Shown: positions 511 through 5,614 of the stretch, piece by piece
Layout: each line of letters starts with the position of its first letter
Numbering within the stretch: position 1 is the first letter of the stretch
Assembly (NCBI GenBank): GCA_013151235.1
Contig: JAADIO010000022.1
Location: 68,256 to 112,590, forward strand
Length of the DNA stretch: 44,335 nt
Source of the DNA: Deltaproteobacteria bacterium
GTDB lineage: Bacteria; CG2-30-53-67
Direction of reading: 5' to 3'
Position numbers and translations under genes: made by a program
Notes under the pieces: generated by a model
Databases searched by the model: none
The model's input: the letters and a program-made list of their open reading frames with translations, nothing else
Told to the model about the DNA's origin: nothing

Positions 511-1554
511 ATGATCTATAAAGTGATCACCAAGAGTGAATTCAGGAAGTTTGTGTCCGGACTGATCCGCGAGAACCAGACGATCGGACCCAAGCTTGTG
601 GATTCCGACAGAGAGGGCAACCCCATCTATCAATTCAAAGAAGTTAATTCCTTTGACGAGATGGACCTGGATTACACACAGGCCGACTACTCGATCAAAA
701 ATTTTTATCTCCCCTTCCGGGAAGAGCTTTCCCGGTTCGATTATTCCAACAGCGACTGGGAGCAGAACATCGAATACCACGTGCATCCCAGGGTGATCGT
801 CGGGGTGCGGGCCTGTGACATTAACGCCCTGACCAAGCTCGACAAGATATTCATGAAGGGGAACTTCCCGTCCCCCCATTATATTGCCCGCAGGAAGAAC
901 ACCTTTTTAATCGGCATGGACCATGAACCTCTGGACGACTGTTTCTGTAAATCGCTGAACCAGGATGTGGTGCGGCACGGTTTTAATCTCTACTGCACGG
1001 ACATCGGAAAAAGCTATTATCTGACAATCAACTCCTCCAAGGCCTTCAACTTTCTGCGGAATGTAAAGACCTCGGATCCCGGGAAGGAAGACGACAGGAA
1101 ATATATTGAACGGCGGAAGTATTTGAAGAAAAAATTTCGCACCCATGTAGAGGTGACCGGGCTTCCCGCCCTCATGGACATCGAGTTTCAATCGGACGTC
1201 TGGAAAAAATGGGGGGACAAGTGCTTGAATTGCGGTTCCTGTGCCATGGTCTGTCCCACCTGTTACTGCCACGGCGTTGAGGAAAACATTGAGGTAAATC
1301 TGAAACGATCACGCAAGGAAAGAGTGCAGTACTCCTGCAGTATCGTGGATTTTGCCGAAGTCGCGGGAGGGCACAATTTCAGGCCCCTGAAAGAGGATCG
1401 TCTCAAGTACAGGTTTTATCATCACTACAGAGGGTTTGCCGAGAACGCAGACGAGCAGATTTGTGTGGGCTGTAACCGGTGCGGCCGTGCCTGTCTGGCC
1501 GGCATCAACCCCAGGGATGTCATCAACGACCTGAGAATGGAGAGCGAAGAATGA
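511..1554 (+). CDS. hydB: Sulfhydrogenase beta subunit (4Fe-4S electron-transfer protein)
   Basis: This 347-residue protein is the iron-sulfur subunit of a soluble four-subunit hydrogenase. The C-terminal third holds a double 4Fe-4S ferredoxin-type region, with one CxxCxxCxxxC motif starting at Cys238 ([11 protein letters not shown]) and a second at Cys318 ([11 protein letters not shown]). The N-terminal two thirds resemble the HydB/AsrA-type domain of sulfhydrogenases and anaerobic sulfite reductase. A GGAG ribosome site stands seven bases before the ATG. The gene is the first of four and overlaps hydG by four bases (ATGA). The expected role is passing electrons between HydG and HydD in the cytosol. 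The subunit name rests on the operon order as well as the sequence. Confidence 0.88.
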
Positions 1555-2459
1555 GCTACAAAATCAAGAAGGAAGATATCAATCTTGAACCCTTTATGAC
1601 CCAACCGCCCCAGTACAATCTCAAAACCGTTGTCATGAAAACGGACAAGGTTTATAAATGCGAGATCATTAACATGATCGAGCTAACGCCCATGGAAAAA
1701 CTTTTTCATCTCAGGATTCTCGATCCTGCCGAACGTGACCTCTTCTCTTTCAGGGCCGGCCAGTTTGTCATGGTCGAGGTCCCCGGCTTCGGCGAGGTCC
1801 CGATCTCCCTCTCGAGTTCTCCAAACAACCGGGAGTTCATGGAACTCTGTATACGAAAAGCGGGGCAGACCACCAACATGCTCCATAAAGCACGGATCGG
1901 ATCCAGGGTCGGCATTCGCGGTCCTTTCGGCACGGCATTCCCCATGGAACAGATGGTCGGGCACAATCTTCTTTTGATCGCAGGCGGACTCGGTCTCGCC
2001 CCTCTCCGGGCTCCGATCTATTGGGTCACGGACCACCGTTCCGATTACCGGGATGTTCATATCCTTTACGGAACCAAGGAGCCCTGGCAGATGCTTTTCA
2101 CCTATCAGTATGAAGAGTGGGAACGGATTAATCATATCCGGATGCTGACGATCGTGGAAAAGGGGGATGAGAACTGGAAAGGCAACACGGGAATGATCAC
2201 CGAACTTTTCAACGACATCACCATTGACCCTGCAAACACCTATGCCATTGTCTGCGGTCCACCGGTCATGTTTAAGTTCGTCTGCAACCACATGGACAAC
2301 CTGGGCATCCCCATGAATCACATGTTTGTCTCCCTGGAACGGAGAATGCACTGCGGTATGGGAAAATGCTGTCGCTGCATGGTGGGGTCCACCTTTACCT
2401 GTGTGGACGGGCCGGTTTTTGATTACTGGTCCGTCATGAATTTAAAAGAAGCCATTTAA
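1551..2459 (+). CDS. hydG: Sulfhydrogenase gamma subunit (FAD/NAD(P)/2Fe-2S reductase)
   Basis: This 302-residue flavoprotein belongs to the ferredoxin-NADP+ reductase / dihydroorotate dehydrogenase electron-transfer family. An FAD-binding barrel covers about residues 30-130 (PISLSSSP near 84). The NAD(P)-binding domain begins at the GGLGLAP loop (145-151). A C-terminal 2Fe-2S motif has Cys268, Cys273, Cys276 and Cys284. It is the diaphorase end of the hydrogenase and exchanges electrons with NAD(P)H. An in-frame ATG lies further upstream inside hydB, but the start at 1551 has a GGAG site and the ATGA overlap with hydB, so I chose it. Confidence 0.88.
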
Positions 2460-2470
2460 GGAGGCCGGTC

Positions 2471-3292
2471 TTGAAGTATCTCGGAATCGATATTGTCAAA
2501 CCCAGGCTCGCAGTTTTTGATTTTACGGGTTGTGAGGGATGTGAACTTCAGTTGGTCAACAAGGAAGAAACATTAGTCGACTTCCTGTCCCTTTTCGAAG
2601 TCGTCAATTTCAGGGAAGCCTCATCGGACAAAAGCGATGCGTACGATATTGCTTTAATTGAAGGATGCATTTCCAGACAGGATGAAGTGGAACGCTTAAA
2701 AGCGATCCGGGGCCGGGTCAAAATCCTGGTTGCGCTGGGCTCCTGCGCTTGTTGCGGCGGGGTGAATCATCTCAAGAACGGATTCCCGATAGAGGATGTT
2801 GTCCGGCAGGTCTACGGAGACCGGAAGATCGAAACCGAAAAAGTCAGGAGCCTCAAAGAGGTGGTACAGGTGGACCTGGAAATTCCGGGATGTCCGGTAT
2901 CCAAGGCGGAGGTAGAGAGAATCGTCATCGCTCTGGTCACCGGGGCGGAGATCCGGATGCCCAAATATCCGGTTTGCGTGGAGTGCCGGCAGCAACTCAA
3001 CACCTGCCTGTTCGATTTCGGGGAGATATGTTTGGGGCCGATCACACTTGCAGGATGCGGAGCGGTCTGTCCCTCGGGCAAGGTCGGCTGCCGGGGCTGC
3101 CGCGGTCCCGCAGATGATGCAAATTATGAATCGTTTATCGATGTAGTTGTCGACAAGGGCTTTACTGAAGCTGAGATCCGAAAAAAGATCGAGTTCTTCA
3201 ATGCCTTCGAAGGACCGGCAAAAGATACTATCGCCTCCTTGATCCAGAAGAGAATCAAAACATTTAACGCATTCAGCGGGGTAAGAGCATGA
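2471..3292 (+). CDS. hydD: Sulfhydrogenase delta subunit ([NiFe]-hydrogenase small subunit)
   Basis: This 273-residue protein is a NADH:ubiquinone oxidoreductase 20-kDa / hydrogenase small-subunit family member. The proximal cluster ligands are visible: Cys21 and Cys24 in GCEGCE, a cysteine in GSCACCGG (91-97), and Cys141 in PGCPVS. Eight more cysteines between 169 and 210 ([22 protein letters not shown]) probably bind two further clusters, as in group 3b small subunits. There is no twin-arginine signal, so it is cytosolic. The start is TTG, preceded by AAGGAGG with good spacing. The stop overlaps the hydA ATG (ATGA). Confidence 0.88.
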
Positions 3293-4563
3293 AAGTGAAT
3301 ATGAACATCGATGTTCATCATGTGACACGAGTCGAGGGTCACGGGAATATCCGGATTGAGGTGCAAGACGGTCGTCTTGTGGAGGCAAAATGGGAAGTCG
3401 TTGAAACACCTCGTTTTTTTGAAGCCATTCTCAAAGGGATGCCCCATGACAACGCTCCCACCCTGACTTCAAGAATATGCGGGATCTGTTCCATCGGCCA
3501 CACATTGGCATCGCTCAGGGCGGTGGAGCGTGCGATGGATGTCGAGGTCCCGGCGACCGCGCAGAAACTCAGGCTTCTGGCCAAACATGGCGAGACGCTG
3601 CAGAGCCATTTTCTACACCTCCTCTTTCTGGTGGCGCCGGACTTCCTGAATGTGGGGAGTGTCATTCCGTTGGTGGATTCCCATCCCGACCTGGTGGCCA
3701 AAGCTGCGAGACTCAAGGGTATGGCCAATTCCATGTGTGACCTCATTGCAGGCCGCACCACCCATCCGGTGAGTCTGGTAGTGGGTGGGGTGAGCAAGGC
3801 CCCGGATAAGCGGCAGTTGGCGGAACTCAAAAAGACCATGGAAGACCGGATGAGGGACGCCGCAGACGTGCTGGAGCTTTTCAAGACGCTGGCCCTTCCT
3901 GACTTTGAAAGAGAGACCGAGTTTGTCTCCTTGAAGGGTGACAAAACCTATCCCTGGATCGGCGGGGACCTGGTCTCCTCGGACGGCGTCATCAAGCCTG
4001 AAGATCAATATCTGGCGATGAGCAATGAGTATCAGGTCAATTTTTCCACATCGAAATTCACAAAACTGAGCCGAGACAGCTTTGCCGTGGGGGCGCTGGC
4101 CCGCCTCAACAACAATTACGATCTCCTTCACGGCAAGGCAAAAGAGGTTGCGGAAACCCTGGGTTTGGAGCCGATGAACTACAACCCATACATGAACAAC
4201 ATCGCGCAACTTGTGGAGTGCTTTCATGCTCTTGCCGAGTCCCTGGACCTTATCGACGAAATGCTGGACGGCGGCATGAACGACCTTCGCCGCCGCTATG
4301 AGGTGCAGGCCGGAGTCGGCATTGGTGCGGTGGAGGTGCCCAGGGGAATACTTTATCATCACTATAACATCGACGAAAAGGGAATGATCACCCATGCCAA
4401 CTGTATCATTCCAACCACGCAGAACAATGCAAACATCCACTACGACCTTGCCGAACTAGTCAAACAGGAAGTGAAAAAAGGCTCAGACGATCAGGAGGTG
4501 AGAAAACTCTGCGAGATGCTCGTGCGGGCCTATGACCCCTGCATCTCCTGTTCCGTTCACTAA
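3289..4563 (+). CDS. hydA: Sulfhydrogenase alpha subunit ([NiFe]-hydrogenase large subunit), no C-terminal tail
   Basis: This 424-residue protein is the catalytic subunit that binds the Ni-Fe(CN)2CO centre. The N-terminal motif RVEGHG (14-19) and the L2 motif RICGIC (Cys64, Cys67) are present, and the C-terminal motif is DPCISCSVH with Cys418 and Cys421. The operon order beta-gamma-delta-alpha and the diaphorase subunit point to group 3b, a reversible NAD(P)-linked cytosolic hydrogenase that in some species also reduces sulfur. Unusually, the stop codon directly follows the histidine of DPCxxCxxH. Most large subunits carry a short extension there that a dedicated endopeptidase removes after nickel insertion. 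This one is encoded in the already trimmed form. Confidence 0.92.
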
Positions 4564-4600
4564 TTCGTTTCTTGAAACTGACACAGCGAAGGGAAGGATA

Positions 4601-4648: not shown

Positions 4649-5071
4649 TTACACGAAGTATCTTTTCAGTAGCCCTTCCAGGGAGCGGGCGTGCCGTCCT
4701 TCATCCCGGGAGGATTCATCGAAGAAGTCATGGGCCGGGTCGATATTGTTCTCCTTGGCCAGGACTGCGGCTTTGCGCTTTCCCTTGTTGGCCATCTGCT
4801 CCCCTTTCAGCATCTTCTCGATATTTTCCTTCGTCGATTCGGAAATCAATCCATTTAATTCGGCAAATTGCGCCGCATGGCCCGCCTCGTCCATGGCGAT
4901 CTCCCGGAGGGAAACGGCCACCTCGGGATAACCTTCCCGCTGGGCCTGTCGGGCCATGGCGAGATAAAGCCCGACTTCGGCGGTCTCTCCCTTGAAATTC
5001 GCCATTACATCCTCTTCCACTACGGTACCTTTGGCAACCCCGATCGTGTGTTCATTGACCAATTCGCTCAT
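4649..5071 (-). CDS. Rubrerythrin-like di-iron protein (no rubredoxin domain)
   Basis: This 140-residue ferritin-like four-helix protein has the di-iron ligand pattern of rubrerythrins: Glu29 in KGETAEV, ExxH at Glu62-His65 in the MDEAGH segment, and ExxH at Glu124-His127 in RDEGRH. Rubrerythrins reduce hydrogen peroxide in anaerobes. The usual C-terminal rubredoxin (CxxC pairs) is missing, so an outside electron donor is needed. The start follows GGGAGAG by a few bases; a longer frame reaching to 5200 overlaps perR and lacks support. It sits just downstream of perR on the same strand, so it is a likely PerR-controlled gene. Confidence 0.85.
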
Positions 5072-5147
5072 TTTTTCTCTCCCTTTAATGATAAAAACAG
5101 TTGCAATGAATGATAAAAAAATTTTTCCCTCCTCGTCATCACCTCCT

Positions 5148-5582
5148 TTACTTTCGGTTTTGATGGTTTCCCGAACCCCGGCAGTCCGCACAGCGTCCAT
5201 AGTAGGAAATCCTGTACCCGGTGAATTCGAAATTCCCGTTCCCTTCCGGAACAGGCAGGACCGTCTCGTCCATCACATCTTCCACGGTCCCGCAGGAGGT
5301 ACAGACCGCATGGGAATGGGGCGTCGTCTCCGGATCGTAATGCCGCCGGTCGCCCGCCAGGTGAAGTTCCATAAGCGCTCCGTCCTCCTTCAGGATCTTC
5401 AAGGTCTGGTAAACCGTCGCCAGGGTCAGGGTCGGATGCCGGGCCACAAGGAGACGGTAGAGATCCTCCGCCGTCGGATGTGCGATATTCCCTTCGAGGG
5501 CCTTGAAGATCGCCAGCCGCTGAGGTGTCACCCGGCGCCCCTTCTCACGGAAATCATTTATTAAATCAACTACTTTCAACAT
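5148..5582 (-). CDS. perR: PerR-type peroxide-sensing repressor (Fur family)
   Basis: This 144-residue Fur-family regulator has a winged helix (recognition segment [12 protein letters not shown]) and a structural zinc site Cys94/Cys97 with Cys131/Cys134. The metal-sensing residues line up with Bacillus subtilis PerR at a constant offset of two: His35, Asp83, His89, His91 and Asp102 correspond to His37, Asp85, His91, His93 and Asp104. Aspartate at the last position, where Fur has glutamate, favours PerR. The ATG at 5582 is ten bases after GAGAG; an in-frame TTG at 5588 is possible. Candidate operators overlap its own promoter, so it is probably autoregulated together with the rubrerythrin gene. 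Confidence 0.87.
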
Positions 5583-5614
5583 AATCAAAAAACTCTCTTT
5601 ATTAATAACGTTTC

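Follow-up and report, generated by a model that had tools for sequence, protein, structure and literature searches.

The question raised by this locus is whether a [NiFe]-hydrogenase can mature when its large subunit carries no C-terminal extension to be cut off. In tailed enzymes, the extension forms a strand that keeps Cys-4 off the active site; once nickel has been inserted, the protease permits closure (PMC12134894, PMC6769069). The window, i.e., the whole stretch of 44,335 nucleotides analysed here, from a Deltaproteobacteria bacterium, encodes a hydrogenase large (catalytic) subunit of 424 residues, hydA/shyA (3289..4563, + strand; open reading frame, profile and structure matches), which lacks such an extension. 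Its last residue is His424 of the L2 metal-binding motif DPC418-ISC421-SVH424 (4534..4560, +), and the TAA stop (4561..4563, +; TGA or TAA in relatives) comes directly after it, so the original prediction read the end of this gene correctly. Our preferred reading, with a probability of roughly 83% and based on sequence comparison, is that HydA is made at its mature length and would be matured by the Hyp proteins without an endopeptidase, the tail and the protease having been lost in the ancestor of its clade.

The operon and its catalytic subunit

The gene hydA is the last of a four-gene operon (511-4563, order B-G-D-A). It is preceded on the same strand by hydB/shyB, a 4Fe-4S (AsrA-like) electron-transfer subunit (511..1554; NF040829 7e-62, Fer4_22), hydG/shyC, a FAD / NAD(P) (AsrB-like) subunit (1551..2459; NF040830 2e-73, PRK08345 2e-82; NAD_binding_1, FAD_binding_6 and DHODB_Fe-S_bind), and hydD/shyD, the hydrogenase small subunit (2471..3292, with TTG as the first start listed; NF040831 5e-52, Oxidored_q6), while Pfam assigns HydA itself to NiFeSe_Hases. 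In NCBIfam the four products score best against the models ShyB, PRK08345/ShyC, ShyD and ShyA, which describe Thermococcales NAD(P)-linked sulfhydrogenases, each score lying well below the equivalog cut-off. For HydA, the Thermococcales ShyA/HydA models gave 288 and 262 bits where 700 and 880 are required, which does not exclude group 3b, since these models are narrow equivalogs of named enzymes. Among solved structures the closest homologues are HyhL of T. kodakarensis and SHI of P. furiosus, and in the tree HydA groups with these two, apart from the group 3c/3d-like outgroup (ingroup branch 100). The four genes that characterise group 3b (AsrA-like Fe-S, AsrB-like FAD/NAD(P), small and large subunit) are all present, and their order is conserved in relatives. 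Taken together, the operon families, the ShyBCDA matches and the homology to HyhL and SHI identify a group 3b hydrogenase, as had been proposed; judged by its sequence, the operon encodes a four-subunit, SHI-like, NAD(P)H-linked [NiFe]-hydrogenase, with the coupling predicted from the FAD/NAD(P) domains. Downstream, two minus-strand reading frames (4649-5200 and 5148-5588), which look like a ferritin/rubrerythrin-like protein and a Fur/PerR-like regulator, converge on the operon.

It could be argued that a large subunit without a tail never receives its NiFe centre and is a sensor, a scaffold or a decaying pseudo-enzyme, as some engineered tail-less enzymes are nickel-free, at least in the second-hand account of them. 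We consider this improbable, because HydA keeps its four cysteine ligands along with the other residues that do not vary across 60 group 3b rows, the four-subunit operon is conserved, and selection is strongly purifying. The ligands C64, C67, C418, C421 and H424 are invariant in alignment A1, as is the whole L1 metal-binding motif R62-I-C64-G-I-C67 (3472..3489, +), giving the CxxC of L1 and the DPCxxCxxH of L2. Between the window and locus L046, dN is 0.20 and dS 1.9; several other pairs have saturated dS, so that strong purifying selection on HydA is indicated by codon comparison where dS can be estimated. The AF2 model of HydA (pLDDT 95.5) superposes on mature SHI with a TM score of 0.93, versus 0.76-0.82 on the immature HyhL-HypA complex.

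Extent and origin of the tail-less end

A search with HydA covered 386 genomes of the domain and gave 99 matches in 98 of them; further phyla were added, and the matching loci were read past the L2 motif to score tails. Group 3b is represented in the tree by 81 rows (79 loci plus SHI and HyhL), 16 of them tail-less and 65 tailed, mostly with 4-21 residues after the L2 histidine; the tailed rows include L092, which is cut by a contig end after one residue. Tails of approximately 22-27 residues are present in all group 3c/3d-like homologues. Four loci with 71-72% identity to HydA (L010, L011, L012 and L046) stop after the same histidine with TGA or TAA, which establishes that the ending in the window is real, and the same end is found in L047-L049 (52-63% identical) and L201-L203 (60-63%). 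The missing tail is therefore encoded, and is neither chance nor a sequencing slip.

The codons after TAA do read Phe-Val-Ser-stop (TTC GTT TCT TGA, 4564..4575, +), as was originally noted, as would be expected if a short tail like F-V-S had lately been cut off in a single strain by a nonsense mutation, or only seemingly so by a base-call error. This explanation is refuted by the relatives and we regard it as extremely improbable: ten other clade members, 52-72% identical, end at the same histidine with differing stop codons and unrelated downstream sequence, while in the nearest tailed relatives (about 50% identical to HydA) the tail is of the MLDVEF / FLDVKF type and 7-9 residues long. The post-stop codons are unrelated among the relatives compared, so that nothing in them speaks for 4564..4575 as a former tail, and readthrough or a hidden tail was ruled out, since the downstream codons are unconserved and the stop codons vary. 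The proposal that a single-base change of a sense codon to TAA removed a four-residue tail is thus contradicted by an 11-member clade that spans at least four phyla; had the relatives all been tailed, the prediction of a genuinely tail-less subunit would have fallen, and the opposite was found.

An 87-row tree was built with the tails excluded, and a second, careful tree was made as well. The window and its ten relatives form one clade in both (SH-aLRT 100 in the former, UFBoot/SH-aLRT 100/99 in the latter), distributed over the small phylum of the window, those of genomes G014 and G093, and Planctomycetota (Sedimentisphaerales). This clade sits within a 40-row clade (99/100), the other 29 members of which are all tailed, and such a position inside a tailed group is best explained by loss, although the exact sister of the clade is uncertain (73/91 for the group with MLDVEFxx tails). 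The tail was probably lost, together with the operon's own protease gene, in the clade ancestor, as far as can be judged from the tree and the gene neighbourhoods.

Other tail-less group 3b branches are L090/L091/L097 (DPCFSCSVH), L108 and L113. Like the window enzyme, these belong to group 3b, stop right after the L2 histidine and have no adjacent protease, but they lie on separate branches, and a shared single origin is rejected: parsimony needs four changes, and the AU test rejects one tail-less clade with p = 8.8e-8. The tree thus suggests at least two, and probably four, losses in group 3b, the cautious count being due to the unsure, long-branch placement of L113.

The residue before the terminal L2 histidine (4555-4557 in the window) is valine in 16/16 tail-less rows versus 20/65 tailed rows, the others having T (33), A (8) or C (4), and apart from this valine no convergent substitution is common to all four tail-less lineages. 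The valine could be ancestral rather than adaptive. No relatives were found on viral contigs. Five group 3b enzymes encoded on plasmids of named isolates were inspected as well; all five are tailed, and four adjoin an annotated maturation protease.

Several observations from the survey stand on their own. Genome G108 has both a tail-less group 3b hydrogenase (L097, DPCFSCSVH-stop) and a tailed one (L088, LIDLRPEAERG), which makes a natural within-cell comparison. Two group 3b large subunits, L085 (G017:C1:753020-766270) and L107 (G165:C1:387561-400805), have an in-frame TGA in place of the codon for the first cysteine of L2, with the ends RAYDP-TGA-IACAVH followed by the tails QFGGEDNKLISIIRK and QFGGEFETVRVIRR, respectively; this TGA is a probable selenocysteine codon. 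In the small phylum of the window (8 species) group 3b is patchy: it is missing from G005, of the same genus, and from G004, G006 and G007, while G001 and G002, of the same family, have a distant group 3b enzyme (36-38% identical), which in G002 carries the tail FLKLKVDRI and has a protease and in G001 is cut at a contig end. This distribution suggests gene transfer.

Proteases beside the operons and in the host genome

With an HMM built from 28 HycI-family proteins of the surveyed genomes, a protease was found within 3.5 kb of hydA in 42/57 tailed versus 0/16 tail-less group 3b loci (Fisher p = 5.7e-8, not corrected for kinship). No more than 3-4 independent losses underlie this association, and only three independent pairs are supported, none in the wrong direction, a number with which a sign test cannot reach 0.05. 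As 15/57 tailed loci also have no nearby protease, a missing one proves little for any single locus. Around the window hydA there is no maturation protease within about 6 kb on either side, and rescanning the tail-less loci with the HMM filters off and with a motif scan gave no credible candidate. A replacement maturation gene was not found either: when the genes surrounding the 16 tail-less operons were clustered, nothing beyond the four subunits proved to be conserved.

The tail-less enzyme of G266 has no protease nearby; in its phylum, each of the 16 other group 3b enzymes has a tail, and for 15 a protease lies no more than 1.5 kb away. G266 has no PF01750 match, none even beside its tailed second hydrogenase, and the sensitivity of Pfam is too low for absence to be claimed. 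G014 was considered as a protease-free natural knock-out and dropped, since a divergent HycI-like gene (L216:6949-7479; PF01750 16.9 bits against a cut-off of 23) adjoins its tailed group 3c-like hydrogenase; because the genome search missed this gene, PF01750 absence calls are unreliable.

Searching the genome for endopeptidases, as had been suggested, gave none near hydA and one elsewhere. The host genome (G000, 2.62 Mb, 99% complete) contains one PF01750 protease by genome profile search, on contig C59, beside a group 1 hydrogenase with the tail VIDPEGKEVIRVKVI. HypC, HypD and HypF are encoded on that same contig, elsewhere than the window operon, so cofactor assembly is available in the host. 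The retained protease would allow that a HycI-family protein encoded elsewhere is still needed by HydA, acting without cleavage as a chaperone or checkpoint while the cofactor is inserted; a Salmonella maturation protease can bind a peptide-free large subunit, and for the protease a function other than cleavage was proposed (PMC7654741). However, the gene for the host protease belongs to the operon of the group 1 hydrogenase, where the tailed large subunit appears to be its obvious client, and the tail-less group 3b operons examined all lack an adjacent protease gene, which makes this explanation unlikely, though less so than a non-catalytic HydA.

Proposed maturation without a tail, and known systems

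In the preferred protease-free maturation, the Hyp proteins would first supply Fe(CN)2CO and then nickel to the open apo-large subunit, after which the C-terminal strand with Cys421 would close over the site, unaided or gated by HypC/HypA, as proposed for the tail-less HoxC of the regulatory hydrogenase, and no HycI/FrxA-type endopeptidase step would occur. That no protease step should be needed was also anticipated by the original prediction, and it is still the best inference, with no cleavable tail encoded. By analogy, the window enzyme most likely matures like the tail-less HoxC or MBH. In vitro, HypCD transfers Fe(CN)2CO to tail-less HoxC in the presence of ATP, and models suggest displacement of the last cysteine by the metal-bound state itself (PMC11565642). 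The tail-less R. eutropha MBH has the activity of the native enzyme at lower abundance (PMC7294309). According to work cited in PMC7294309, engineered deletion of the tail of E. coli Hyd-2 and of R. eutropha SH gives nickel-free enzyme, so there are backgrounds in which the lack of a tail does harm; on that summary of the work, removal of the tail inactivates Hyd-2 and SH while MBH stays active.

The sequence survey indicates that the protease step, thought to be standard for group 3b, has probably been lost several times. A broader proposal, which we hold to be evenly balanced, is that group 3b lost the tail and the linked protease at least four times, that Hyp-dependent NiFe assembly in these lineages runs without a proteolytic checkpoint, intrinsic small-subunit proofreading or HypC/HypA gating taking its place, and that the valine before the terminal histidine may mark a permissive sequence. 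Tail-less group 3b enzymes are not mentioned in the open-access papers searched, and group 3b is absent from the lists of tail-less groups of 2020 (PMC7294309) and 2025 (PMC12134894). The naturally tail-less enzymes recorded so far fall into groups well apart from that of SHI, the soluble model enzyme. Group 3b, for its part, holds tailed and tail-less members, mature (SHI) and immature (HyhL-HypA) structures and several independent losses, and with solved structures, about 50% identity between HydA and its nearest tailed relatives, and repeated losses inside one group, matched pairs or a tail-swap test of the checkpoint model become possible. If the enzyme is protease-free, a soluble NAD(P)-linked hydrogenase would be simpler to produce in other hosts.

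What the original prediction overlooked is that tail-less [NiFe]-hydrogenases were already recorded, in groups 2b, 2d, 4c and 4e (PMC7294309, PMC12134894) and also 4g (PMC7294309). The H2-sensing regulatory hydrogenases (HoxC, 2b/2d) and the CO-linked (4c), Ech (4e) and 4g enzymes share with the window enzyme the natural absence of the extension, and their maturation is attributed to the canonical Hyp machinery (PMC7294309, PMC12134894). Unlike these, HydA would be a cytosolic NAD(P)-linked enzyme whose tail was lost inside a tailed group; in the tree it lies outside groups 2b, 2d, 4c, 4e and 4g and is nested in group 3b with SHI/HyhL. With SHI and HyhL (PDB 9nf0, 9e15, 5yxy) it shares the four subunits, the fold (TM 0.93) and the same mature C-terminal end. 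The statement that the Pyrococcus group 3b extension is only about four residues long agrees with the literature, in which the SHI tail is VVRL, removed by FrxA (PMC2865534). SHI is thus made with a tail that is then cut, whereas HydA, 34% identical to it in structural alignment, is made without one.
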